From positions 1 to 12,309 of the forward strand of contig JAFWDX010000463.1 in NCBI GenBank assembly GCA_017515945.1: a stretch of DNA of 12,309 nucleotides, read 5' to 3'. Every line of letters starts with the position of its first letter. The first letter of the stretch is position 1. A program made the position numbers and the translations under genes. The notes below the pieces were generated by a model. That model was given only the letters and a program-made list of their open reading frames with translations, did not search any database and was not told where the DNA came from. Of this stretch, positions 21 through 12,309 are shown piece after piece. The DNA comes from Blautia sp. (lineage in GTDB: Bacteria; Bacillota; Clostridia; Lachnospirales; Lachnospiraceae).

Positions 21-800
21 ATGTGGACAATGGTCAATGACCTGAACACCGTCTGCGGGTATGTGGAAAAGGATGATGAAGACCGGTCCGTGAACTATCT
101 GCTGGTGGTTTTGTTTTCCGTGTTCACCTTTTCAATATATTATTATTATTGGCTCTATAAACAGGGAAACAGGATGCGGGCAGCCGGAGAAAAGTACAAC
201 ACCCGAATTGATGAAGGCGGATGGTCATATATCGTATGGTATCTGCTCCTGTGGTTTGGCGGACTGATCGGGTTCCATCTTTTTATTAAAAATCTGAACC
301 GGTTGGCCAGAAGATACAATGAGGAGATTTCAACACCATTTTTGCCATCGAAGGATCCGGGGAATGGATACGGAGTGGAGAGCTACCCCTTGCCTCAGGA
401 TCCGGCAGTGATAGACATACCGGACCGGCCGCGGCCATATGGACCTTTTGACACGGATACGTCAGAAGGACTCACGGTGGGTCTCAAGCAGGGAACCATT
501 GAATGCATATCCGGACAATACAAAGGTGCAAATATCCTGGTCCCGCCCGGAGATGAGCTGGTGATCGGCCGCAATGCCATGGTCAGCCAGCTGGTGCTTG
601 CTGACGGGGATATCAGCAGAAAGCATTGTACGATCGTTTTCAAAGCTGCACCGGATAACGCTTATTATGTGACGGATCACTCCAGTTGGGGAACCTTCCT
701 TAATGGAAACATGCGTCTGAAAAAAGATCAGGAGACATATTGTCCGGTGGGCTCCAAGCTGACACTGGCGAGCGGAAATAATCAATTCTTACTGAAATAA
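21..800 (+). CDS. DUF4234-like membrane protein with C-terminal FHA domain (5' end uncertain)
   Basis: Probable membrane-anchored FHA protein that would hold a phosphothreonine-binding module at the inner face of the membrane. Two hydrophobic segments lie at about residues 24-44 and 69-89. The aromatic pattern between and around them (IYYYYWLYK, later LNRLARRYN) resembles DUF4234. A Pro-rich linker (about 105-145) leads to an FHA domain (about 158-259) with the conserved GR at 183-184, a canonical SRKH at 199-202 and an SSWGTFLNG strand-turn at 221-229. It is the only FHA domain in the window with an intact SxxH motif, so it is the best candidate phospho-reader. The ATG at 21 has no Shine-Dalgarno sequence, and the frame stays open to base 3, so the true start may lie upstream of the window; an in-frame ATG at 30 is no better supported. 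The next gene begins 14 bases after the stop, so the two are probably co-transcribed. The FHA call is firm; the DUF4234 call rests on pattern resemblance. Confidence 0.85.
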   Translation: MWTMVNDLNTVCGYVEKDDEDRSVNYLLVVLFSVFTFSIYYYYWLYKQGNRMRAAGEKYNTRIDEGGWSYIVWYLLLWFGGLIGFHLFIKNLNRLARRYNEEISTPFLPSKDPGNGYGVESYPLPQDPAVIDIPDRPRPYGPFDTDTSEGLTVGLKQGTIECISGQYKGANILVPPGDELVIGRNAMVSQLVLADGDISRKHCTIVFKAAPDNAYYVTDHSSWGTFLNGNMRLKKDQETYCPVGSKLTLASGNNQFLLK

Positions 801-801
801 C

Positions 802-807
802 AGGAGG
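802..807 (+). promoter_or_regulatory. Shine-Dalgarno site of the zinc-ribbon/FHA gene
   Basis: A perfect AGGAGG lies 7 bases before the ATG at 815 and fixes that start. Confidence 0.9.
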
Positions 808-814
808 TAAACAG

Positions 815-1705
815 ATGAAACTTACAAAATGCCCGAATGGCCACTACTATGATGCAGATAAATTCAACACCTGCCCTCATTGCGCAGGAGCCGGGAGCAA
901 GGCCGGCGGTACGATCGGAAATGATGATGACAGGACAGAAAATTTTTATGAAAAAGGAAACGACTTTGGCGGGTCAGGCCAGGGACCGGCGGATGTGACA
1001 GGCCGCTATCCCACGCAGCCGATGTATCAGAATGATCCTTCCCGTCAGGCAGCGCCTTCGTATTCGGATTTCCAGACTTCTTCACAGCCTACTATGCCTC
1101 CGATCGCACCGGACCCGACGTCCGATACGGTATCCATGAGCATACCGGGGATGCCTTCCTGGAAGACACAGGCGTCAGCCCCGTATTCGGATGATGACGA
1201 CGAAAAGACAGTCGCTTATTACGCAGATCTGAACCCGACAGGCAGTTTTGACAAAAACAGTTCGCTGAATATGCCCCGGTTTGGCGTTGACAGTGACATG
1301 ACTGCACCGATCATACCGGGAGCAGGTGCTGCCAGGGAAAAAGTTGAACCGGTGGTGGGCTGGCTGGTGTGTATCGAGGGTTCCAACTTCGGTCGTTCAT
1401 TTATTCTCCATGCCGGAAAGAACTTCATCGGCCGCAATCAGAATTTTGATATATATCTTCCGGATGATATTTATATCTCGAGAGATATTCATGCCAGTAT
1501 TATTTTTGAGCCGAAACAGCGGGTATTCTTTGCTCAGCCGGGAGATTCGCATGCGTTGTTTTATCTGAATGACAATGTCGTGCTTTCCAATGTGGAGATC
1601 CATGACAGGGATATAATTGAGATCGGGCATACAAAGCTGATGTTCGTTCCCTTCTGTGACGAGCGGTTCAGCTGGGATGCCGGAAAAGGTGTGGAGAAGG
1701 CATGA
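815..1705 (+). CDS. Zinc-ribbon/FHA domain protein (paralogue of the 9747 gene)
   Basis: Probable cytoplasmic adaptor; no signal peptide or membrane segment is visible. The N-terminus has a compact metal-binding-type motif: CPNGHYYD at 6-13 and CPHC at 20-23, with C6, H10, C20 and C23 as possible ligands. A disordered Gly/Ser/Pro/Asp-rich linker spans about 25-175 and includes an acidic run, SDDDDEKT, that could carry a phospho-site. The C-terminal FHA domain (about 181-282) has GR at 206-207. In place of SxxH it reads SRDIH (222-226), one residue longer than usual. It ends in a conserved FVPFC...FSWD tail. The 9747 product shares the N-terminal motif, the GW(L/V)VC entry strand, the lengthened S/A-R-x-x-H loop and the FC...WD tail, so the two are paralogues. 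The stop overlaps the next start (ATGA at 1702-1705), which indicates translational coupling. The molecular partner is unknown. Confidence 0.92.
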   Translation: MKLTKCPNGHYYDADKFNTCPHCAGAGSKAGGTIGNDDDRTENFYEKGNDFGGSGQGPADVTGRYPTQPMYQNDPSRQAAPSYSDFQTSSQPTMPPIAPDPTSDTVSMSIPGMPSWKTQASAPYSDDDDEKTVAYYADLNPTGSFDKNSSLNMPRFGVDSDMTAPIIPGAGAAREKVEPVVGWLVCIEGSNFGRSFILHAGKNFIGRNQNFDIYLPDDIYISRDIHASIIFEPKQRVFFAQPGDSHALFYLNDNVVLSNVEIHDRDIIEIGHTKLMFVPFCDERFSWDAGKGVEKA

Positions 1706-2472
1706 AAGCTGCACGTAGTTTTACATACAACTGCCATGACGACAGCGGATCCATGATCTATACATGCCAGCCGAATGACGTCATCGATGATATCCTGTAC
1801 GCCCGGCTGCAGAGGGAATTGATCCCCCATCTGCTGCCGGTAAAGAAAATGCGTCTGAGCCAGACCCATCTGGTTTACGACCTCGGCAATATGATCGTAT
1901 TTAACGCGTATAAGGAGCGGATCCAGCCGCAGGCTCAGCGTCAGCTTGACAAAAAACGGCGGGAAATCATCAGAAACCTGATCAACAGCGGCATTCCGCT
2001 GGACACGATCATGACGGACGACCAGCATGTTTATTTCAATGAAACCGACGGAGAGATATATTTCATCTGCCTTCCGCTGAAGGATCATGACACCGAAAGG
2101 GTCTATCCCGGTACGACCACAGGCACTACGGGCAGCGGTACGGGTCAGGAAATACATACTCAGCCCATGGAGAAAGCAATCCTCAGACGATGCAGTGACG
2201 GGAGTCAGTACAGAATGGAGAATACCAGACTGAGGGTCGGCCGCAAGCCGGACGAAGCGGATGCCGTGATCACCGGAAACGGTCGGATCGGAAGGCTCCA
2301 CTGTATTCTGAGCAGTGAAGGTGGAAGATACTTTATTCAGGACAATCGCTCGGTCAATGGCACCGTCGTCAACGGGCACCGCCTGGAAGCAGGGGGGAGA
2401 GCTGAGCTGACGAACGGGAGCCGGATAAAGCTGGCGGATGAGGAATTCATTTTTGAGATCCGTCGTCCGTAG
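1702..2472 (+). CDS. FHA domain protein with DUF6382-like N-terminal domain
   Basis: Probable soluble signalling protein of 256 residues. The N-terminal region (about 1-128) looks like the DUF6382 domain often found before FHA domains in Clostridia: helix-rich, with a YDLGNMIVF strand, a LINSGIPLDTIM segment, and an ending HVYFNETDGEIYFICLPL. A Gly/Thr-rich linker (about 135-152) follows. The FHA domain (about 158-255) has GR at 180-181 and DNRSVNGTVVNG at 214-225. The position of the conserved Ser in SxxH is Gly (GRLH, 197-200), so phosphopeptide affinity may be changed or lost. The start overlaps the upstream stop by 4 bases, and GGAG at 1693-1696 gives 5-base spacing, so this ATG is well supported. 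The DUF6382 assignment is from remembered pattern and is moderate; the FHA call is strong. Confidence 0.9.
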   Translation: MKAARSFTYNCHDDSGSMIYTCQPNDVIDDILYARLQRELIPHLLPVKKMRLSQTHLVYDLGNMIVFNAYKERIQPQAQRQLDKKRREIIRNLINSGIPLDTIMTDDQHVYFNETDGEIYFICLPLKDHDTERVYPGTTTGTTGSGTGQEIHTQPMEKAILRRCSDGSQYRMENTRLRVGRKPDEADAVITGNGRIGRLHCILSSEGGRYFIQDNRSVNGTVVNGHRLEAGGRAELTNGSRIKLADEEFIFEIRRP

Positions 2473-2495
2473 CACAGGAAAGGAATGAAGCAGGT

Positions 2496-4961
2496 ATGAG
2501 GTGCCCAAAATGTGGAAATACTGTACGGGATGGGGAACCGGTCTGCCCGGTCTGCGGCGCTAAGACAGACTATACGCCGGTAAGACCGGAACACAGCAGT
2601 GATCATCAAAAAAAGCCGAACAGATTCGTTCAGATCCTGGCCGGATGTCTGGCTGGTGTTATGGTGCTGACTGCGGGAGTTTCAGGTTTTATATATGTCA
2701 GGAGCAGGTCAAAGGACGCCCGCCTGGAACGACAGCTGAAGCGGGCGGCCAATTATCTGGAGGCTGAACAGTATGAGGAGGCTGAGGTCGCCTATAATGA
2801 GGCTCTGAGGATAGACAGCGAATCCAATGAAGCGGCGCTGGGTCTGGCAGAGGTGTATAATGCCCAGGACAAACCGGAAGAAGCAGATCGTATGCTGCAG
2901 AGAGTTGATCAGCGTATCCAGTATCTGGCCGAGGCCGATATACCGGATTCCGAAAGAAGGGCGCTGGAGGATCAGAAAGAGCAATATGACAGAGTCGCGG
3001 ATCGGACCGCCGATATGTTTGCATCCAATGGAGAGCCGGAAGTTGCTGAAAACCTGAACAACAGGAAAAAGAATACAGATGACAGGTATCGATATATTAT
3101 TGATGATCCGGGAGTGGATTTAAAACCGGATCCGGTCGATCCCGGCCCCGTGGTATACGGCGTAACACCAGTCGTCGACAAGTCGAAGGGGACGACGGAA
3201 TCTCCTTATGGGGGGATAGATGATGCCGATGATGTGGGAACTGCAGATCCCACTGTGCCGTCGGAGATCGAGACGGAAACGGAGACAGAGAACACAACGG
3301 AATCTGTGGTTCCTCCGGTCACTGCGGCGCCTGAACACGAGGAGCCGGAAAACCCGATCGTCACGACGGAATACGATATAGCTGTGACGACGGAGTTTGA
3401 AACTGCTGCAACGACAGAGTCTGAGGTTGTCGCAACGACGGAGCCGGATGCTGCTGCGGTGACGGAGCCTGAGACAGCTGTGACAACAGAGTTTGAGGCT
3501 GTCGCAACGACAGAGCCGGATGCTGCTGCGGTGACGGAGCCTGAGACAGTTGTGACGACAGAAACAGCGCCGGCAGCAACTACGGAATATGCGAGTGTTG
3601 TTACAACAGAAGAACCGACGGGACCGAGAGTGATCATGGATACCCCGCTGACGGAGGATCCGGAAGATGATCTGATATCGGATGATGATCAGATGACGGG
3701 AGAAGACGATATTTCTGATGAGGATCAGATCCCGGCAGAAGACGGGATAACGGAGGAGGATCACACATCGGACGAATATCCGGAGGATCCCGAAGAACCA
3801 GACAAAGATCACGCATCGGATGAATATTCGGAGGATCCCGAAGAACCAGACGAAGATCACATATCGGATGAAGACCCGGAGGATCCGGATGAACCGGGCA
3901 AAGAGGACCGGGAGGAAGAGACCACATCTGAGGATCCGGAGCATGCAAAGCGGGATATACCGCAGGAGGATGCGGAAACGATCGGGACACCTGAAAAGAG
4001 AGACAAGGGTGCCCATACCGGGGATGAGGAACACACGGAAAATCCTGCCGACGATCCATCCGGGACGGAGGAGCCGCCGACACCGACTGAAGGGCCGGTT
4101 GAGGAACCGTTGACACCGACTGAAGCGCCAGTTGATGAAGCGCTGACACCGGCTGAAGAGCCGGGAAATGAACCGGCGGCACCGACTGAAGAGCCGGCTG
4201 ATGAACCGCTGACACCAGCTGAAGAGCCGGTGGATGAACCGTCGGCACCGATTGAAGAGCCGGTGGATGAACCGCCTGTGCCGGTTGAAGAGCCGGTGGA
4301 TGAACCGTATATACCAGCTGAAGAACCGGTTGAGGAACCGTCTGAGCCAGCTGAAGATCCATGGGATGAATTCCCTGTGTCGGCTGAAGAGCCGGAACCT
4401 GAATTGCCTGAGCCAGTCGAAGAGCCATGGGAAGAGCTGCCGGAGTCGGTCATGGAGTATATACCTGAAGAGGTTTACGATGCCGTGGAACCCGCACTGG
4501 AATCGGTGGAGCCGCTCGTCCAGGCCATGGCCATGGAGTACGAGGACAGCGCCGATATTTCCTCCGACTATCCCGACGCAGATGATTTCTGGGAGATCGC
4601 GGAAAATTATGCTCAGATCAGAGGCGGGAGCTGCAGCACTTATGAACTGAATGAAGCCGCGTATGCGATGTTCCCGGATTACCCGGGCGTTCTTCCTGAA
4701 GTACCCCGGTCCATGACGGACAGCGGGAAAATCGCGGAGAACGGCGGCAGCTACAGCTTCGGTTCCGGCACGACAGGCGGCAGTCTGGTTCTCCAGAGCA
4801 GTACCGTGTCAGAGGACGGAACCGTTGAGGCCACATATATGTACACGGGAACAGATGGAGCCACATTGACCATCTCGGTTCGTCTGACGGAAAATCCGAA
4901 GTCTGATGGGGCTTCCGGAAGTATATTTAAGTACAGGATACAGTCGATTCAAATTAAATGA
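2496..4961 (+). CDS. Zinc ribbon-TM-TPR protein with long repetitive acidic stalk and C-terminal domain
   Basis: Large single-pass membrane protein of 821 residues. A zinc ribbon (C3xxC6 and C17xxC20) is followed by a basic linker, a TM helix at about 46-68 and TPR-like helices at about 78-140 (YLEAEQYEEAEVAYNEALRI). From about 255 to 660 it is low-complexity: a Thr/Glu/Ala stretch with a 24-residue tandem repeat, an Asp/Glu/Ser stretch with a 16-residue repeat, and eleven consecutive 11-residue units of PxEEPVDEPxx type (530-650). The last 125 residues form a separate domain: helical about 694-725, containing GGSCSTYELNEAAYAMFPDYP, then beta-rich. I do not recognise this domain. By analogy with the kinase at 5171, the zinc ribbon is probably cytoplasmic and TPR, stalk and C-terminal domain extracytoplasmic, with the stalk spanning the wall. 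The gap to the previous gene is 23 bases. The ribosome binding site is weak (AGGAAAGGA at 2476-2484, 11 bases away). The function is unknown; sensing or scaffolding is inference. Confidence 0.9.
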   Translation: MRCPKCGNTVRDGEPVCPVCGAKTDYTPVRPEHSSDHQKKPNRFVQILAGCLAGVMVLTAGVSGFIYVRSRSKDARLERQLKRAANYLEAEQYEEAEVAYNEALRIDSESNEAALGLAEVYNAQDKPEEADRMLQRVDQRIQYLAEADIPDSERRALEDQKEQYDRVADRTADMFASNGEPEVAENLNNRKKNTDDRYRYIIDDPGVDLKPDPVDPGPVVYGVTPVVDKSKGTTESPYGGIDDADDVGTADPTVPSEIETETETENTTESVVPPVTAAPEHEEPENPIVTTEYDIAVTTEFETAATTESEVVATTEPDAAAVTEPETAVTTEFEAVATTEPDAAAVTEPETVVTTETAPAATTEYASVVTTEEPTGPRVIMDTPLTEDPEDDLISDDDQMTGEDDISDEDQIPAEDGITEEDHTSDEYPEDPEEPDKDHASDEYSEDPEEPDEDHISDEDPEDPDEPGKEDREEETTSEDPEHAKRDIPQEDAETIGTPEKRDKGAHTGDEEHTENPADDPSGTEEPPTPTEGPVEEPLTPTEAPVDEALTPAEEPGNEPAAPTEEPADEPLTPAEEPVDEPSAPIEEPVDEPPVPVEEPVDEPYIPAEEPVEEPSEPAEDPWDEFPVSAEEPEPELPEPVEEPWEELPESVMEYIPEEVYDAVEPALESVEPLVQAMAMEYEDSADISSDYPDADDFWEIAENYAQIRGGSCSTYELNEAAYAMFPDYPGVLPEVPRSMTDSGKIAENGGSYSFGSGTTGGSLVLQSSTVSEDGTVEATYMYTGTDGATLTISVRLTENPKSDGASGSIFKYRIQSIQIK
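3423..3556 (+). repeat. 72-bp tandem repeat in the Thr/Glu/Ala linker
   Basis: The stretch at 3423-3484 recurs at 3495-3556 with only a few substitutions, an offset of 72 bases (24 codons). It encodes two copies of a unit starting E-(V/A)-VATTEPDAAAVTEPET. The repeat keeps the reading frame, so copy changes would alter stalk length without breaking the gene. Confidence 0.85.
3781..3876 (+). repeat. 48-bp tandem repeat in the acidic stalk
   Basis: Two 48-base units, starting at 3781 and 3829, encode near-identical 16-residue blocks of the form EDPEEPD(K/E)DH(A/I)SDE. A third, diverged partial unit follows from about 3877. The repeat is in frame. Confidence 0.8.
4083..4445 (+). repeat. Eleven 33-bp units encoding an 11-residue Pro/Glu repeat
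   Basis: Residues 530-650 of the stalk protein divide exactly into eleven 11-residue units with no indels. Examples are PTEGPVEEPLT, PAEEPVDEPSA, PIEEPVDEPPV, PVEEPVDEPYI and PVEEPWEELPE. Central units are nearly identical at DNA level, while the outer ones have diverged and gain Trp/Phe (PWDEF, PWEEL). The pattern suits an extended, acidic, proline-rich rod. Confidence 0.9.
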
Positions 4962-4987
4962 CTGCACAGACGATATACTAGAGGGTC

Positions 4988-5021
4988 TAAATACGTGGAA
5001 TGCTTTGCTTCCACGTATTTA
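4988..5021 (+). terminator. 13-bp perfect hairpin downstream of the stalk-protein gene
   Basis: TAAATACGTGGAA (4988-5000) pairs perfectly with TTCCACGTATTTA (5009-5021) across an 8-base loop. Outer GAGG (4981-4984) and CCTC can extend the pairing through two mismatches. It lies 26 bases after the stop, where a terminator for block 1 is expected. No U-run follows on either strand, so it is not a canonical intrinsic terminator. An operator, an mRNA-stabilising 3' hairpin or an attenuator for the kinase gene are alternatives. Confidence 0.55.
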
Positions 5022-5058
5022 AAGCCTCTGCATATACCGCGCGGAAATTCAGGTATAT

Positions 5059-5088
5059 TTTCCATATATTTGATCTCGCGGGTATAAT
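5059..5088 (+). promoter_or_regulatory. Sigma-A-type promoter of the kinase-protease unit
   Basis: A perfect TATAAT -10 box (5083-5088) lies 18 bases after TTTCCA (5059-5064, 4 of 6 matches to TTGACA). It would start transcription about 75 bases before the kinase ATG, so the palindromic repeat at 5097-5129 would be in the mRNA leader. A 7-bp inverted repeat, ATATACC (5032-5038) and GGTATAT (5052-5058), lies just upstream of the -35 box and could be an operator; that part is speculative. Confidence 0.65.
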
Positions 5089-5096
5089 GAGAAAGG

Positions 5097-5129
5097 CAGC
5101 TGTGAAGGAGCTTGTGACTGAACAGTTAC
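5097..5129 (+). repeat. Palindromic intergenic repeat, copy A
   Basis: The left arm CAGCTGT (5097-5103) and right arm ACAGTTA (5122-5128; pairs with one end mismatch and one G-U) flank the 18-base loop GAAGGAGCTTGTGACTGA. The loop differs at one base from copy B (read on the - strand) and is clearly related to copy C. The unit lies in the kinase leader. It is flanked by near-identical direct repeats TGAGAAAGGCAGCT (5088-5101) and TGAGAAGGCAGCT (5130-5142). Confidence 0.8.
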
Positions 5130-5170
5130 TGAGAAGGCAGCTTAAGGACGAATCCTGAACAGGAGTGAAC

Positions 5171-7168
5171 ATGGCAGAGTCGTATTCAGAGAAATATGAG
5201 ATCATTGGCCAGATCGGTGAAGGCGGGGGCGGGATCATTTACAAAGCCTATCATCGCGGGCTCAGAAAATTCGTCGTGCTCAAAATGATCAAGGGCGGAT
5301 TCCGGAAAGGTATCGGCAGCCGTATTGAGGTGGACATTCTCAAAAACCTGAAGCATCCGAATCTGCCGCAGGTATATGATTTCCTGACCATCAACGGAAA
5401 TCTGTATACGGTGATGGACTTTATCCCGGGTAAATCCTTTAAGGAGTACCTGGATCAGGGATGCCGCTTCGGTCAGGATGAGGTACTGGAATGGATGACG
5501 GAGCTGGCGCAGACCCTTGATTATCTTCATACCCGCAAAAGGCCGATCATTCATTGTGACATCAAACCGGGGAATATCATGCTGCAGCCGGATAACCGGA
5601 TCTGTCTGATCGATTTTAACGTATCCGCAGGTGCGGAAGGCAACAGTGTGGTGACCGGTTATACCAGGGCCTACGCGCCGCCTGAACAGGTCTGGGCTGT
5701 GACCTATAACCGGACACAGCCAGATCCCGCGAAATGGATGGGGATCGACGGCCGCTCGGATATCTACAGTCTCGGCGCATCCATCTATCACATGCTCAGC
5801 GGGGTATATCCGGCAGGACATGGAAGCAGGAACGACGGGAAAAAAGAGCCCATTGTACCGATCCGTAAGGTCGTGCCGGGTATACGCAGAGATTTTGCCG
5901 AGATCATCATGAAATGTCTGGAGGAGGATCTGGACAAAAGGTATCAGAGTGCCCGTGAGCTGGTGGAGGCGCTGGAAAAGATCCGCCATCCCGCGTGGCA
6001 CAGATATCTGGCCGCCGGGTTGTGTGCGGCCGCCGCCGTGTCGGTACTGGCGGCCGTCATTTTCACCCGTTCGAGGATGCGCGAGAACCGCTATGAGGAT
6101 CTGGTGGCCGAAGAGTGGGCCTGTATAGAGTCGGAAAAATATGACGAAGCCAGGGAGGCTTATAAGGAGGCGATCCGGATATTTCCGGACCGGATCGACG
6201 CGTATTATAACCAGGCGGTCGCGCTTCATGCCCAGGATCTTTATAAAGATACGATCGATTTTATTGAGGATACGATCCTTTCCGACTCCTCCATATATCT
6301 GGGAACAAATAAAGACGAATTGTATTACCTGCTGGGAAATTCCTATGAGAACATGAGGCAGTATGAAAGAGCTTCAGACTGCTACCGGATCACGATCGAG
6401 GCAAATCCGCAGAATGCGGATTATTACCGTGAGTACGCGATCACGCTGGCGCAGTCCGGCAGGATCGAGGAAGCCCGGCAGGCGACAGAGGACGCCAGGA
6501 ATCATGATGTGGATTCTGTGACTCTCGAGCTGGTGGAGGGGCAGATCCTGTACAGGCAGGGAGAGACACAGCGCGCGAAAGAGCTCTTCAGGGAGATCAT
6601 AGACAAGACGGATAATTCCTATATCCAGATGCGCGCGTATCTCATGCTGGCTGAGTGCGCGGAGCACCCCGGAGAAGGAATGGATCCGGCATATCAGGAG
6701 GAACTGCAGTACCTGGAGGAAGCGAGGGAAAAACTCCCGCTGGAATTCCGCACGGAAGTCATGAAGCGTCTGGCAGATACCTACATCCGTCTGCAGAGTG
6801 CAAGCGGGGACAATGCTTACTATCTGATGGCGGCTGATGTGTACAAACAGATGAAAAGTGAGGGAACTGCTTCTTATAATGTCCTTCGCAAGCTGGCGCG
6901 CATCTACGTCAATCTGAAAGATTTTTCAAAGGCATTGCAGGAGCTGGAGGAGCTCAGGCTCGATTACGGTGATAAATACATCACGTACCGGGAACTGGCA
7001 TATACCGAAGGGCTGCGCCAGGACGGATTGTCTGCAGACAGCCGGGATTATACAGACTTCTGTGAGTACTATGAAAAAGCACAGAGGCTTTACAGTCTGC
7101 AGACGGATCAGGAACCGGATGAAATTATGGATCTGCTGAAAGAAAAATATGAGTCCATAAAGAAATGA
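5171..7168 (+). CDS. Membrane Ser/Thr protein kinase with C-terminal TPR tail
   Basis: Receptor-like Hanks-type kinase of 665 residues, predicted to transfer phosphate from ATP to Ser/Thr of partner proteins at the inner membrane face. The catalytic domain (about 7-270) has a Gly-rich loop IGEGGGGIIYK (15-25), catalytic Lys38 in VVLKMIK, and a catalytic loop HCDIKPGN (128-135) with Cys in place of the Arg of HRD, making it a non-RD kinase. The metal-binding motif is DFN (148-150) instead of DFG. The activation segment has TGYTRAY followed by PPEQ (170-173). Asp130, Lys132, Asn135 and Asp148 are kept, so activity is plausible. A TM helix (about 279-298) leads to a TPR-rich domain of about 360 residues, probably extracytoplasmic. 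ATG 5171 is preferred over an in-frame GTG at 5165, because AGGAG (5161-5165) sits 5 bases before the ATG and overlaps the GTG. Likely partners are the FHA proteins and the PP2C phosphatase in the window. Confidence 0.95.
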   Translation: MAESYSEKYEIIGQIGEGGGGIIYKAYHRGLRKFVVLKMIKGGFRKGIGSRIEVDILKNLKHPNLPQVYDFLTINGNLYTVMDFIPGKSFKEYLDQGCRFGQDEVLEWMTELAQTLDYLHTRKRPIIHCDIKPGNIMLQPDNRICLIDFNVSAGAEGNSVVTGYTRAYAPPEQVWAVTYNRTQPDPAKWMGIDGRSDIYSLGASIYHMLSGVYPAGHGSRNDGKKEPIVPIRKVVPGIRRDFAEIIMKCLEEDLDKRYQSARELVEALEKIRHPAWHRYLAAGLCAAAAVSVLAAVIFTRSRMRENRYEDLVAEEWACIESEKYDEAREAYKEAIRIFPDRIDAYYNQAVALHAQDLYKDTIDFIEDTILSDSSIYLGTNKDELYYLLGNSYENMRQYERASDCYRITIEANPQNADYYREYAITLAQSGRIEEARQATEDARNHDVDSVTLELVEGQILYRQGETQRAKELFREIIDKTDNSYIQMRAYLMLAECAEHPGEGMDPAYQEELQYLEEAREKLPLEFRTEVMKRLADTYIRLQSASGDNAYYLMAADVYKQMKSEGTASYNVLRKLARIYVNLKDFSKALQELEELRLDYGDKYITYRELAYTEGLRQDGLSADSRDYTDFCEYYEKAQRLYSLQTDQEPDEIMDLLKEKYESIKK

Positions 7169-7192: not shown

Positions 7193-9655
7193 ATGGATCA
7201 GTTTGCACTTTTGCCGAATACGATACTGAACGCACGATATCTCGTCAAATCTTTGCTGGCTTATGAAGAACCGTGCTTTAAGTATGCCTGTGTGGATCTT
7301 CAGAGACAGCAGGATTGTGTGATCTGGGAGTTTTTTGATCCTTCCGTTATGGCCAGAATGCCGGATCTGACTGCAGTGGGATTCCTGGGACCGGCAGAGG
7401 AGCGTTTTCGTGCGGAACGCGATGAATTTGCCCGCAATGCGGCCTTTCAAAGCCAGAACCCGGATTTTACATATTTTAAGGAAAATCATACTTATTATCT
7501 GGTCGACTGCTCTGCTCCGATGGAGCAGGCCTCTGCGGCGGAAAAGGAACATGACAGGTCCGGATATAAAAAGGCCGCGGCAGAAAAGACGCATAAAAGG
7601 CCTGGACATAAATACACTGCTGCGGCCGTAGTCCTGTGTCTGCTGGTGGCAGCAGTTGGTGGCTTTTTTTTCCTGAGTCATCATGGCGTGCCATTTCCGT
7701 TTCCGTGGGGGAACGGTCATACAGAGCTTTCGGATCATACATCCGGAAAGCCTGTTCCGGCGGGTACAACGATCATGATCTATATGACCGGGGCGGATCT
7801 GGAACATGAAGGAGGGCTGGGCAGCCTTGAGATGGAGGAAATTGCCGCTTCGGGCATTTCCGTACCTCTTAATGAGATCCTGATCTGCACCGGCGGTACG
7901 AAGCTGTGGCAGAACGGTATTCCGGCGGACAAAAATACGATCTGTCATCTGGAGAGCGACGGGAGTTATACGACGGTCCATGAAACCTCTGCACTGCAGA
8001 ATATGTGCGCCCCGGATATGCTGGCTGAATTTGTCAACTACTGCACCGCGCATTATCCTTCCGATCACTATGGACTGATCCTGTGGGATCATGGGAGCGG
8101 ACCGATCCTGGGCTATGGACTGGATGAAAATTTTGAATATGATACCATGATGCTGAGCGAGATGAAACAGGCGATGGATCAGACGGTTTTTGCCGGGGAG
8201 GAAAAAATCGACTGGGTCGTGTTCGACGCCTGTGACATGGGGAGTGTGGAAATCGCGCGGACATGGGCTCCTTACAGTGAGTATCTGGTTGCTTCTCAGG
8301 AATCGATCCCCGGATTAGGGCTTGATTACAGCTTCCTTTCGGAACTCAATGATACCGGTGATCCTGTGAGGATCTGCAGGAATATTTCGGAGAGATATAT
8401 GCGTTCCTATCAGGAGATGGAGGATTCCTTTACCGTACCGGTGCAGACGATCTCATGTATCCGTCTTTCTGCCACGCAGGATCTCGCAAAGAAGCTGGAC
8501 GACCTTTTTGTACGTATGCAGGGAGAATTGAATGAGGATACTTATCCGCGGCATGCCAGACTGCGGGCCGATACCAGACGGATCGGGCTGGTCGCATCGG
8601 CGGGTAAGATGTACAGCTCTGACATGATCGACCTCGGTGCGTATCTGGAGGGATGCCGGGAAATATGCCCTGCACAGGCCGGCGCCTGTATCGACGCGCT
8701 GGAGAAATGTGTGGTCATGCATGAAGAAAACAGGGCAGCCCTGTCGGGGCTGAGCATATATCTGCCCTATGACAATCTGGAGTTCTATGACGCTGTCGGG
8801 CAGGAAGTGATAGGGGACGTCAATGAATCGGAAAATGCCTGCACCTATCTCAGAGAAATGGTCAAACTCAGAAACAGAGGCACATCCGGGGCTGACTGGC
8901 ATTTTGCAGAGGCTTCCTCAGACAAGGATTCACTGACATTAAAACTGACAAAAGAGCAGCAGGCGGATACTGCAGAGGTATATTTTACCGCACTGAGCCA
9001 TGAGGATGTATTCGGCGCCATCACCGGTATTCCGGGAAAATGGCTGAGTATTGATTCCGGTACATATTTTCCTCTGCTGAAAGAGTGCCGGATATGGCCG
9101 GATAAAAAGGGAAGGATAAAGATTCCCTGGCAGCAGGAGCTGGCCTGTGTATATTCCGGACCTGAACATACGGTACATGTGGTTCCTGTGAGACAGACGG
9201 ATAAAGAAGGAGATCTGGAGTTTTATGTAACCGAAACGGCTCATCTGACGGATTTTTCCGGTTTTGGCGGGGAATTTGTGCAGGATGCGGATGTGTACAT
9301 GAACTTTGCCTGGGACAAGAAGAAACAGGCTGTGGAGATCATAAGCGTTACCAATGGCCAGGCGGCTCCGGTGGAAAACTTCGGCGGAAAAAACGAGATG
9401 CTGACAACAGACTGGCAAACGCTGGAATACGGTTTTTCAACGATCACTCCACCCGGAATGAGGGATGGGATCATGGCACCCTATGATACATGGCCGGAGG
9501 ATGTCTGGGCCAGGAGCGGATCTGTCACAATGGATGAAAACCTGGCTGCCGGCAGTGTGATCTCATCCGGCCCTGATTTCTGCTATCAGATCATTGTAGA
9601 GGACGTGTATGGCGTAAGACATGCCACACCGATCTATTCCATGCCCGAAACGTAA
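7193..9655 (+). CDS. Membrane-anchored clostripain-family (C11) cysteine protease with kinase N-lobe-like N-terminus
   Basis: Probable surface protease of 820 residues. The cytoplasmic N-terminus (about 1-107) follows the order of a kinase N-lobe: LPNTILNARYLV, then CVIWEFFDP where active relatives have VAIKEYFP, a long RFRAERDEFARNAAF helix, and FKENHTYYLVDC resembling the hinge. The Gly loop and catalytic Lys are missing (Trp45 is near the Lys position), and no C-lobe follows. After a basic linker, a TM helix spans about 141-161. The peptidase C11 domain starts near 191 (TTIMIYMTGADLE). It has the His of LWDHGSG (H300) and the Cys of VFDACDMGSVE (C347), the expected catalytic pair. C11 enzymes typically cleave after Arg/Lys and are often autoprocessed. 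The last 250 residues or so are beta-rich and unassigned. AGAGAG (7182-7187) precedes the ATG by 5 bases. The gap to the kinase is 24 bases, so it is co-transcribed. The C11 call is strong; the N-lobe call is inference. Confidence 0.93.
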   Translation: MDQFALLPNTILNARYLVKSLLAYEEPCFKYACVDLQRQQDCVIWEFFDPSVMARMPDLTAVGFLGPAEERFRAERDEFARNAAFQSQNPDFTYFKENHTYYLVDCSAPMEQASAAEKEHDRSGYKKAAAEKTHKRPGHKYTAAAVVLCLLVAAVGGFFFLSHHGVPFPFPWGNGHTELSDHTSGKPVPAGTTIMIYMTGADLEHEGGLGSLEMEEIAASGISVPLNEILICTGGTKLWQNGIPADKNTICHLESDGSYTTVHETSALQNMCAPDMLAEFVNYCTAHYPSDHYGLILWDHGSGPILGYGLDENFEYDTMMLSEMKQAMDQTVFAGEEKIDWVVFDACDMGSVEIARTWAPYSEYLVASQESIPGLGLDYSFLSELNDTGDPVRICRNISERYMRSYQEMEDSFTVPVQTISCIRLSATQDLAKKLDDLFVRMQGELNEDTYPRHARLRADTRRIGLVASAGKMYSSDMIDLGAYLEGCREICPAQAGACIDALEKCVVMHEENRAALSGLSIYLPYDNLEFYDAVGQEVIGDVNESENACTYLREMVKLRNRGTSGADWHFAEASSDKDSLTLKLTKEQQADTAEVYFTALSHEDVFGAITGIPGKWLSIDSGTYFPLLKECRIWPDKKGRIKIPWQQELACVYSGPEHTVHVVPVRQTDKEGDLEFYVTETAHLTDFSGFGGEFVQDADVYMNFAWDKKKQAVEIISVTNGQAAPVENFGGKNEMLTTDWQTLEYGFSTITPPGMRDGIMAPYDTWPEDVWARSGSVTMDENLAAGSVISSGPDFCYQIIVEDVYGVRHATPIYSMPET

Positions 9656-9746: not shown

Positions 9747-10364
9747 ATGAGAGAGATCATCAGATGTCCGCAGGGGCATTACTACGACAGAGCGCAATAT
9801 GGAAGGTGTCCTCATTGTGAGAGAGGGGCATTTCCTCTGCGAAGACCGGATACCCTGGAAAAGAGGGAGATCTCCGATCTGGCAGGCGAATATCTGCTGG
9901 AGCAGCTGAACAGAGGAACAGTGCCGGTCAGACGGAATATACGCCAGGATGATCAGCCTACGGTGGCGATGATGTCGGACCGGAAGGACTATTTTGTGAC
10001 AGGTTGGGTGGTCTGTGTCGGAGGGCCGGATATCGGCCATTCTTACAATCTGCACTTCGGCTTTAACCGGATCGGACAGAGCTTTGAGAACGAGGTTGTG
10101 CTGTCTGAAGATCCGGCTGTAGCCCGCAGGACGCATTGTACGATCATATACGATGGCGCAAAAAGCAACGCCTTTTATCTGCTCCCTGAGGAGGGATGCG
10201 TCACGCTGGTCAACGGAGAACCCGCGAGGGCTGCAGGGGGTATGCCCGCGGCAGTCCTGCGCTCGGGTGACCGGATCACATTGGGAAAGACGATGCTGGA
10301 GTTTATTGCATTTTGCAGAGGCGCGAGGCGCTGGGATTTTGGAGAGCAGCAAGGGAGACGATGA
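9747..10364 (+). CDS. Zinc-ribbon/degenerate FHA domain protein (paralogue of the 815 gene)
   Basis: Short adaptor of 205 residues, probably cytoplasmic. N-terminal motifs CPQGHYYD (7-14) and CPHC (21-24) match the 815 product. A linker much shorter than its paralogue's contains QPTVAMM, a possible Thr site. The FHA-like domain (about 86-190) starts GWVVCVGG and ends FIAFC...RRWDF. Key residues have drifted: the GR pair is GQ (110-111), and the SxxH region is ARRTH (126-130), lacking the Ser. Phosphothreonine binding is therefore doubtful, and a scaffold or regulatory role is an alternative. GGAGG (9733-9737) lies 9 bases before the ATG. The stop at 10362-10364 is one base short of the PP2C start at 10366, so the pair is translationally coupled and the product may serve the phosphatase directly. 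Confidence 0.9.
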   Translation: MREIIRCPQGHYYDRAQYGRCPHCERGAFPLRRPDTLEKREISDLAGEYLLEQLNRGTVPVRRNIRQDDQPTVAMMSDRKDYFVTGWVVCVGGPDIGHSYNLHFGFNRIGQSFENEVVLSEDPAVARRTHCTIIYDGAKSNAFYLLPEEGCVTLVNGEPARAAGGMPAAVLRSGDRITLGKTMLEFIAFCRGARRWDFGEQQGRR

Positions 10365-10365
10365 A

Positions 10366-11100
10366 ATGATGACATATGCCAGAGAGTCTAAGGCCGGTGA
10401 TCGTAACTATAATGAAGACTGTGTCATGGTGACAGAGAATGACGGCCATTTGTGCGCAGTATTGGCAGACGGACTTGGCGCGCATGGAGGCGGTGATCTG
10501 GCATCCCGTATCGTGGCCGAAGAGAGCGTACGGATCGCCGGCGAAGCGGCTGTGTTTACGGAGGCTACCATGTGCAGCTGTTTTGAGCAGGCGCAGGAAA
10601 AACTGATGGCTGAACAGGAACAGCTGGGACAGCGGTACGGGATGAAGACCACCATGACGCTGCTGCTGGCCGATGAAAAGCAGATCCTGCAGGGGCACAT
10701 CGGAGATTCCAGGATTTATACGTTTAAGAACGGACTCATGACGGGAAGAACACTGGATCACAGTGTTCCGCAGGCACTGGTGAGGATCGGGGAGATCACA
10801 GAGGATCAGATCCGCCACCATCCGGACAGAAATCGTCTCCTGAGGGTAATGGGTGTGGACTGGGAAGATGAGAAGCCCTATGTACTGGCACCTGCGATGA
10901 CCCGACAGGAAGATCAGGCCTTTTTGCTCTGCACGGATGGGTTCTGGGAATACATTCTGGAAGCCCAGATGGAAGCCTGCCTGCAGAAGACGACCACAGC
11001 AGAGGAATGGCTTGATGAAATGCTGAAGATCGTGGAGAAAGAGGGGAAAGGCCATAATATGGATAATTACTCTGCGATCACGATCCGTATGGATGAGTGA
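10366..11100 (+). CDS. PP2C-family (PPM) Ser/Thr protein phosphatase
   Basis: Soluble metal-dependent phosphatase of 244 residues, the length of a bare bacterial PP2C catalytic domain. Family motifs appear in order: GDRNYNEDC (11-19), LADGLGAHGGGDLAS (33-47) with metal-binding Asp35, TTMTLLL (95-101), GHIGDSRIY (110-118), LLCTDGFWEYI (187-197) with Asp191, and DNYSAITI (233-240) with metal-binding Asp233. All expected acidic residues are present, so it should be active. Its likely role is to reverse phosphorylation by the kinase at 5171. I chose the ATG at 10366 because AGGGAG (10352-10357) lies 8 bases upstream; a second in-frame ATG at 10369 is possible. It has no membrane segment. Kinase and phosphatase are separated by a terminator, unlike the common arrangement of adjacent PP2C and kinase genes. 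Confidence 0.95.
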   Translation: MMTYARESKAGDRNYNEDCVMVTENDGHLCAVLADGLGAHGGGDLASRIVAEESVRIAGEAAVFTEATMCSCFEQAQEKLMAEQEQLGQRYGMKTTMTLLLADEKQILQGHIGDSRIYTFKNGLMTGRTLDHSVPQALVRIGEITEDQIRHHPDRNRLLRVMGVDWEDEKPYVLAPAMTRQEDQAFLLCTDGFWEYILEAQMEACLQKTTTAEEWLDEMLKIVEKEGKGHNMDNYSAITIRMDE

Positions 11101-11207: not shown

Positions 11208-12309
11208 ATGAATAAAGAATGGCCATCGCTTCGAAAGAAAGCAAAACGGGTATTTCATACATTTGCAGTCATTATCTCTATAATGAGCGTACTAAGCCTG
11301 ATAAATGCAGGTGATTTTCAGACGGAAATACAGGCTTCTCAGGTTACGGGTTTCACATCTGAGCAAGCGACGGAAGAGACTTCTGCTGCGCCCGCTGTCA
11401 CGTCCGATGTTACGCCAACATCGGAACAGACCTCCACATCAACTACAGAACAGACCACCACACCAACTACAGAACCGGCGACCACACCAACTACAGATCC
11501 CACACCAACTACAGAACCCGCGCCAGTTTTAACGCCAACACCTACATCAACACCAACACCAACACCGACGCCTACATCAACACCAACGCCTTCACCTGTA
11601 ACTGTACCAACTAAGAACATCAAAACAAAACTCAAACAGTTTGGAGATAAGTATCTTATTATAAAACCTGTGAAGAGTAATAAAGTTGAAATTGGGTTAC
11701 AGAATGAAAAAAAAGCGGGCCAGTTTATTTCCGATAACCTGAATAAAGAAAAAAAGAAAACGCAGATAAATATATCATTAACAGCCATAGGTCTTAAAAA
11801 GAACAAAGAATTACTGAATGAAAATAAAAAACTGAGTACACTGCTTCAAAAAAAATCACTCAGATTAAAGCTTAATGGCGGTATTATTCCAAATGAATTA
11901 TACAGAACGAGATTTCAAATGAGATACCCCATTGATCATCCTTCTGTAAAAAGCTCGTCATACCGATATTTTTGCGGTGTACAGCTGAATGCCTCTAAAT
12001 TAAGCGAGAGTAATGGAAGCGCAACAGTACAGTTCAAACTGCCGAAGGAGATCGTGGGAGTTCGAACGATAAAAATAAAGCTGTTGGACGACAAAAAGAA
12101 CCTTATAGAGAAAAAAAGCATTAAGAACAAGTCGGGCAGTACGAAGACTTTTACGGGTATAAAGAAGAATACACGCTATTATTATACTTGTGAGGTCAAA
12201 ACCTCTGACAAAAAGCAGGAAAAATGTACGGATCTGGGTTTGGGTTCATTTATTATTTCCACAGGTAATCAGGCTGCCAAAGCAAAAGGAACCGCAGAAA
12301 ACGTTGAAC
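11208..12309 (+). CDS. Secreted Thr/Pro-linker protein, 3' end beyond the window
   Basis: The frame is open from this ATG to the last base (367 codons), so the gene is 3'-partial. The N-terminus is a signal peptide: a basic region (RKKAKR, 9-14), a hydrophobic core at about 16-33, and a possible Ala-x-Ala-like cleavage around INAG or IQAS. Residues 46-135 are a Thr/Pro/Ser-rich linker with PTTEP and TPTPTP repeats, typical of wall-spanning segments. The rest is Lys-rich and beta-prone. The stretch GIKKNTRYYYTCEVKT (317-332) resembles the final strands of an FN3-like domain. From about 11600 on, the DNA is clearly richer in A/T and Lys/Asn/Ile codons than the upstream genes. I recognise no enzyme family. 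A surface adhesin or wall-associated protein is plausible, and it need not belong to the phospho-signalling set. Confidence 0.85.
   Translation, partial: MNKEWPSLRKKAKRVFHTFAVIISIMSVLSLINAGDFQTEIQASQVTGFTSEQATEETSAAPAVTSDVTPTSEQTSTSTTEQTTTPTTEPATTPTTDPTPTTEPAPVLTPTPTSTPTPTPTPTSTPTPSPVTVPTKNIKTKLKQFGDKYLIIKPVKSNKVEIGLQNEKKAGQFISDNLNKEKKKTQINISLTAIGLKKNKELLNENKKLSTLLQKKSLRLKLNGGIIPNELYRTRFQMRYPIDHPSVKSSSYRYFCGVQLNASKLSESNGSATVQFKLPKEIVGVRTIKIKLLDDKKNLIEKKSIKNKSGSTKTFTGIKKNTRYYYTCEVKTSDKKQEKCTDLGLGSFIISTGNQAAKAKGTAENVE
11400..11606 (+). repeat. Thr/Pro-coding low-complexity repeats
   Basis: ACACCAACTACAGA occurs three times (11460, 11484 and 11502), followed by short CCAACACC-type repeats to about 11590. 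Together they encode the PTTEP/TPTP linker of the secreted protein and are prone to copy-number slippage. Confidence 0.8.

Follow-up and report, generated by a model that had tools for sequence, protein, structure and literature searches.

The window, by which we mean the whole stretch of 12,309 nucleotides that was analysed, carries on one strand three FHA genes, a zinc-ribbon TPR gene, a kinase-TPR gene, the gene under study, a further FHA gene and a PP2C phosphatase gene, in that order (Table 1). The gene under study (7193-9655, + strand) is an open reading frame of 820 amino acids. It belongs to a draft genome of 518 contigs, 79% complete, and its contig ends with the window. The zinc-ribbon TPR protein (2496-4961) contains long Thr/Glu/Pro repeats of the TTEPDAAAVTEPE and EEPVDEP types, and at 11208-12308 the N-terminal part of a PT-rich, likely secreted protein is interrupted by the contig end.

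Table 1. Features of the gene under study and of its neighbours in the window.
Feature	Position	Strand	Basis
Orphan kinase N-lobe, residues 1-105, ends at hinge	7193..7507	+	HMM, HHalign, AF2, Foldseek, VIA-align
W45 at beta-3 ATP-binding Lys position	7325..7327	+	Alignment
N82 at alpha-C Glu position	7436..7438	+	Alignment
Cytoplasmic linker (predicted), residues 106-142, polar, K/R-rich, low pLDDT	7508..7618	+	Sequence, AF2
Single TM helix, residues 143-161	7619..7675	+	Hydropathy, flanking charges
C11 protease region, residues 192-571	7766..8905	+	PF03415; PDB clostripain-like sequences
H300, catalytic-type His in LILWDHG	8090..8092	+	Invariant in 5/5 aligned C11 proteins
C347, catalytic-type Cys in FDACDM	8231..8233	+	Invariant in 5/5 aligned C11 proteins
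Neighbouring bitopic kinase with TPRs; possible partner	5165..7168	+	PF00069, TPR; TM residues 282-300
Three FHA genes	21..2472	+	Pfam
FHA gene with DUF4234	21-800	+	Pfam
FHA gene, middle one of three	815-1705	+	Pfam
FHA gene with DUF6382 match	1702-2472	+	Pfam
Zinc-ribbon, TM, TPR protein with acidic repeats	2496..4961	+	ORF, Pfam, hydropathy
FHA protein	9747..10364	+	Pfam
PP2C phosphatase, Stp1/IreP-like	10369..11100	+	PP2C_2 E 4.8e-13; NF033484 E 2.4e-45

The fusion through a TM helix to a C11 protease, as described in the initial annotation, is confirmed by Pfam and hydropathy. Within the C11 (clostripain-type) region, PF03415 matches residues 213-448 with 149.6 bits against a cut-off of 25.8 (E 2.2e-43), and PDB clostripain-like sequences match as well. 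With this score and with its His and Cys motifs the protein belongs to the C11 family, and proteolysis itself is predicted from sequence. Residues 143-161 form the sole strong hydrophobic segment, with six K/R among the 20 residues that precede it and none among the 20 that follow. Since the positive charges precede the TM helix and none follow, the N-terminal part is predicted to lie inside and the protease outside, and any control of the one by the other would therefore have to cross the membrane.

On profile comparison and modelled structure, residues 1-105 do resemble the N-lobe of a Hanks-type kinase. This resemblance lies below library thresholds, as the Pfam and NCBIfam scans find no match in residues 1-151 and recognise Peptidase_C11/clostripain only. 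An N-lobe HMM was therefore used that had been trained on 18 active zinc-ribbon-kinase N-lobes from fetched genomes and database proteins (Lys, HRD and DFG kept by pattern), with pseudo-lobes left out of training. The model covers window residues 5-104 (model positions 2-110 of 116) and scores 33.7/32.1 bits on a 113-residue piece and 27.5/25.9 bits on the whole protein, while the best of the shuffled controls of the same 113 residues (n = 2000, 1826 reported) reached 6.1 bits. When 2762 ORFs of the fetched loci were scanned with the lobe HMM, what it matched beyond C-lobe-bearing kinases comprised the orphan lobes, one lobe truncated at a contig end and one frame-broken kinase; the next score had an E of only 0.015. 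HHalign gave 97.4% for the window lobe alone and 99.7% for four pseudo-lobes jointly.

Structure prediction points the same way. AF2 modelled residues 1-113, from an 8-row alignment with three active kinases among its rows, at pLDDT 91.5 and pTM 0.84, with strands at 16-25, 28-35 and 40-47, the alpha-C helix at 66-86 and strands at 92-97 and 100-105. A full-protein AF2 model built from five rows and no active kinases drew the same N-lobe strands at a poor overall pLDDT of 57.7 (block values of 38-73 across residues 1-110), and its protease part was too poor for use. The initial annotation had proposed a kinase N-lobe that spans first strand to hinge, and had named a five-stranded sheet plus alpha-C as the pattern that would support it and an unrelated fold or disorder as what would speak against it. 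The HMM, HHalign, AF2 and Foldseek results bear this proposal out: the predicted fold has the five strands and alpha-C, with the homology to match, and neither an unrelated fold nor disorder was seen.

By its sequence the lobe is non-catalytic. The initial annotation had correctly noted that the Gly loop is absent and that CVIWEFFDP replaces the VAIKEYFP of active relatives; LAYEEPC stands where these have a loop of the GEGGFG type, with A, E and C at the Gly positions. The Leu position of the R-spine is occupied by Q86, and the lobe has none of the Gly loop, beta-3 Lys and alpha-C Glu of an active kinase, nor does the protein have a C-lobe with HRD and DFG. When the window was searched as 204 six-frame ORFs, the only C-lobe match was that of the kinase at 5165. 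The earlier statement that a TM helix takes the place of the C-lobe therefore stands as regards the missing C-lobe, but the helix begins only after a polar linker of about 37 residues.

The relatives of the protein indicate where this lobe may have come from. A homology search with window residues 1-300 returned the protein itself, P0002 and, by the C11 part only, P0003; a search with P0002 residues 1-330 brought in P0005. Both P0002 and P0005 consist of a zinc ribbon, a full pseudokinase, a TM helix and a C11 domain, and the window lobe has local identities of 35% and 31% to them. Their C-lobe is degenerate (Pkinase matches of E 0.11 and 0.0044), with HRD and DFG unrecognisable by eye. A scan of a genome collection gave two loci, with the lobe present only in one, a contig of the Lachnospiraceae MAG RUG11216 (L025), whose protein P0004 (representative of 12 member sequences on 10 contigs) has a zinc ribbon, an N-lobe only, a linker, a TM helix and a C11 domain. 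Its lobe stops at the same hinge position (FKENHTWYLI) as that of the window (FKENHTYYLV). The beta-3 Lys, W45 in the window, is Arg in P0002, P0005 and L025, and the alpha-C Glu, N82 in the window, is F, M and K, respectively. No C-lobe was found in 283 six-frame ORFs of L025. Other searches added little: L025 residues 1-150 retrieved their own cluster only, a whole-protein search of the genus matched 18 of 64 genomes via the C11 part while the N-terminal part was matched nowhere outside the genome of the window, and a phage search gave two partial matches and no lead. As the library scans and the L025 query gave nothing further, the family was linked via P0002 and the custom profile. Two genes made of tandem DYD-rich repeats lie some way off on either side of the L025 region (3450-5273 and 13517-15100).

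A tree built from 56 C11 domains unites the window, L025, P0002 and P0005 in one clade, with support of 99/98. The window protein thus sits in the C11 clade of the zinc-ribbon pseudokinase-TM-C11 proteins but is without the N-terminal zinc ribbon that P0002, P0005 and L025 all have. Across all the loci fetched, 62 ORFs match C11; of these, only the window and L025 gene copies also carry the lobe. The pairing of these two within the tree is weak (81/36), so that one loss of the C-lobe and two losses are both possible. Since P0002 and P0005 still bear a C-lobe and already have Arg for Lys, weak Pkinase matches and no HRD or DFG recognisable by eye, the pseudokinase state probably preceded the loss of the C-lobe. 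The ancestor would have been a zinc-ribbon pseudokinase-TM-C11 protein, a form that P0002 and P0005 would retain in full; the C-lobe would then have been lost, in the window together with the zinc ribbon, while the N-lobe was retained and remodelled. We regard it as very probable, from sequence comparison and modelling, that the protein is a membrane C11 protease with an orphan non-catalytic N-lobe that arose from such an ancestor. A zinc-ribbon pseudokinase of another kind, P0009, is joined to PASTA domains, with Arg for Lys and with HRD and DFG absent by eye.

The N-lobe-only layout is not confined to C11 proteins. A census, based on lobe-profile searches of 397 family genomes for which many of the listed places were fetched, plus other loci, gave at least 166 distinct lobes among the matches listed, 158 with a C-lobe and eight without. 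Two of the eight were dropped, one cut by a contig end (L193) and the other a 146-residue lobe (L145) whose C-lobe lies in the next ORF, making it a frame-broken kinase. This leaves at least six true C-lobe-less lobes among the matches listed: those of the window and L025, one in an 898-residue protein with a TM helix, Ig-like and MORN repeats (G193), two in proteins of 683 and 675 residues with a TM helix and LRR (G072, G394), and a stand-alone zinc-ribbon lobe of 152 residues that stops at the hinge (G405). The LRR proteins form a related pair and so do the C11 proteins; the six orphans therefore amount to about four lineages. At least one of Lys, HRD and DFG is missing in 21 of the 158 C-lobe-bearing kinases listed, as judged by simple patterns and with some ORFs cut.

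Several details of these proteins can be added. The G193 lobe (L160 79-2772), set among active kinases, retains its Gly loop and alpha-C Glu but has Arg for Lys. The LRR pair (L241 8708-10756, L242 5823-7847), of N-lobe-TM-LRR-PUD layout, occupy the same place in two genera, away from kinase genes. The 152-residue lobe (L243 8468-8923), possibly a soluble regulator, lies just downstream of kinase, FHA and PP2C genes, and a kinase split across two frames (7356-8461) adjoins it.

The stretch between alpha-C and beta-4 normally helps to join the two kinase lobes. Measured between the column of the alpha-C Glu and the EN motif that precedes the last strand, this span is 23 residues in 154 of the 158 C-lobe-bearing kinases listed (range 22-25, none under 22) and also in the C-lobe-bearing P0002 and P0005. 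Of the six orphans, G193 and G405 have 23 residues too, while in the other four the span is shortened (16-21), to 16 residues in the window, 17 in L025, and 20 and 21 in the two LRR proteins; as the shortened ones form related pairs, this represents about two lineages rather than four. Given the usual role of the stretch, such trimming is consistent with a lobe that has adapted to existing without a C-lobe. The recurrence of the layout suggests a reused building block and not a broken gene. The initial description of a decayed remnant can therefore be kept only in so far as the lobe is a non-catalytic pseudo-N-lobe; decay is the less apt word, since the layout recurs in L025 and four other proteins, with span shortening, and looks like that of a remodelled module.

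The genes around the orphans link some of them to kinase signalling. Besides the window, the G193 orphan (PP2C and a kinase upstream, more kinases downstream) and the G405 orphan (preceded by FHA, PP2C and kinase genes) stand in kinase/phosphatase clusters, whereas L025, G072 and G394 are not beside kinases, so that three orphans support a kinase link and three do not. The 15.1 kb of the L025 locus gave no match to any of the window's other proteins, FHA and PP2C included, and the G072 and G394 orphans follow genes that we take, by eye, to resemble NusG, L11 and L1. Ser/Thr kinases are present in all six orphan-bearing genomes, and the L025 genome has six further lobes of the same type as its orphan.

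The kinase at 5165 belongs to another subfamily, scoring no more than 6.4 bits with the zinc-ribbon N-lobe HMM, and this score led us to reject the idea that the lobe is a copy of its neighbour. Ten genus relatives have a full-length counterpart of this kinase; the zinc-ribbon TPR gene adjoins it in all ten and an FHA gene in nine, and the N-lobe-C11 gene was found in none of the ten fetched stretches (one of which ends at the kinase). The FHA, zinc-ribbon TPR and kinase-TPR genes (window 1702-7168; L089-L098) stay together in these relatives. In L091, the one neighbourhood with a Pfam scan, Tad-pilus-type genes (TadE, prepilin peptidase) lie next to the module, and a zinc-ribbon F5/8-type protein comes after it; the window copy has no Tad-pilus neighbours on its contig.

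The function of the lobe can be addressed more tentatively. In the explanation that we favour, at slightly less than even confidence, the lobe would fold in the cytoplasm, bind no ATP and serve as a docking or self-association module; the extracellular protease would be held in a complex at the membrane that also contains Ser/Thr kinases and FHA proteins, and the clustering or placement of the protease would follow that complex. Because protease and lobe are predicted on opposite sides of the membrane, the simplest effect would be to place or gather the protease rather than to switch it directly. This explanation draws on the fold and homology, the C11 clade, the recurrence of the layout, the shortened span and the predicted topology, as well as on the three orphans in kinase/PP2C clusters and the kinases in all six genomes. 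Against it stand the three orphans away from kinases, the different subfamily of the 5165 kinase and the operon core that is kept in genus relatives without the N-lobe-C11 gene. Docking of the lobe to a kinase is plausible. The back of the N-lobe sheet and alpha-C are known contact surfaces, and the residues of the back-to-back contact in PknB are R10, L33 and D76. By eye, these map to R15, R38 and T93 in the window, where only the Arg appears to be kept; if the lobe docks, the contact is therefore probably altered.

Other explanations of the lobe need to be weighed. It could be a passive leftover of a pseudokinase, a soluble cytoplasmic head that precedes a TM signal anchor and has no specific partner, and we give this a possible but clearly minor share. 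Such a remnant would agree with the position of L025, G072 and G394 away from kinase clusters, with the loss of every catalytic N-lobe position in the window, and with the window lobe being the most diverged of the six from the active profile (about 26-34 bits). A leftover would, however, not readily account for a core fold that is retained with high predicted confidence in AF2, for a truncated layout that recurs with a remodelled loop, or for a 152-residue stand-alone lobe (G405) that has nothing to anchor. Alternatively, the lobe could pair with itself and bring two proteases together with no kinase partner involved. Back-to-back N-lobe dimers are described for PknB (PMC6333020) and for the MviN pseudokinase (PMC12599244), and orphans without a kinase neighbour would fit, but residues of the PknB-type interface appear, by eye, to be only partly kept, and we consider self-pairing unlikely.

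Somewhat more improbable is that the 5165 kinase phosphorylates the lobe and linker as a substrate platform, with FHA proteins reading the Ser/Thr and the phosphatase resetting them. Four FHA genes, the kinase and PP2C do lie within the same stretch, and the linker is polar and predicted to be disordered. Yet Ser/Thr are scarce by eye in this linker (residues 106-142), the long linkers of the other orphans are unlike it, and FHA and PP2C are absent within the 15.1 kb of L025. A mis-assembly, frameshift or wrong start that conceals a C-lobe or joins two genes would be conceivable in a draft genome such as this one, but is highly improbable: the six-frame searches revealed no C-lobe in the window (the 5165 kinase aside) or in L025, which shows the same boundary independently, and the member sequences of P0004 together with these searches led us to reject mis-assembly. 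The docking or self-association module in a membrane complex remains the explanation that we favour.

Several known systems share features with the protein. Zinc-ribbon Hanks kinases with a PpkA-like N-lobe (L061 and L062 in the same genome, P0006-P0008 and PpkA 5hnv/5x1r) share the N-lobe pattern and fold, and many of them are bitopic, as is the window protein; they keep the Gly loop, Lys, Glu and a C-lobe with HRD/DFG, all of which the window protein lacks along with the zinc ribbon. P0002 and P0005 agree with it in order of parts, lobe and C11 clade and differ in keeping the zinc ribbon and a degenerate C-lobe. L025/P0004 has the N-lobe only, the same hinge and a span of nearly the same length, but differs in its zinc ribbon, its long PT-rich stalk, its location apart from kinase genes and the residue before Ala-Cys, two positions ahead of the catalytic-type Cys, which is Asn there and Asp in the other aligned C11 proteins. 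The C11 peptidases 6n9j, 6mzo and 9cip share the C11 domain with its His and Cys motifs, and a kinase-derived domain is absent from the match.

The closest conceptual parallel is KIND, a kinase C-lobe that serves as an independent non-catalytic module (PMC3415841). Both are half kinase folds used without catalysis; KIND is a eukaryotic C-lobe (Spir, PTPN13 and others), whereas the window lobe is bacterial, membrane-bound and matched to the N-lobe half, and is thus not a KIND domain. The MviN pseudokinase (ActPs3) uses its N-lobe as a dimer surface (PMC12599244) and is, like the window protein, a bacterial pseudokinase coupled to the membrane, but it is fully bilobal, actinobacterial and without a protease fusion. 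A narrow search of open-licence literature found neither an N-lobe-only counterpart of KIND nor a C11-kinase fusion. Within the scope of that search, what is new here is the N-lobe-only form of a half-kinase pseudo-domain, half-kinase modules as such being already known through KIND.

Kinase pseudo-domains are usually studied as bilobal wholes. It is a speculative and rather doubtful generalisation that orphan N-lobes form a recurrent bacterial signalling module, which would bind kinase N-lobes in heterotypic pairs and so couple or switch those kinases to outside parts (C11 protease, LRR or MORN/Ig), with stand-alone lobes as soluble regulators. If it were true, the ATP lobe too could live alone as an interaction part, beside the C-lobe in KIND, and the N-lobe would offer a small expressible domain for testing such an interaction. 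For the bacterium itself, the proposed docking would provide a route by which cytoplasmic phosphosignalling could position or gather a cysteine protease outside the cell.
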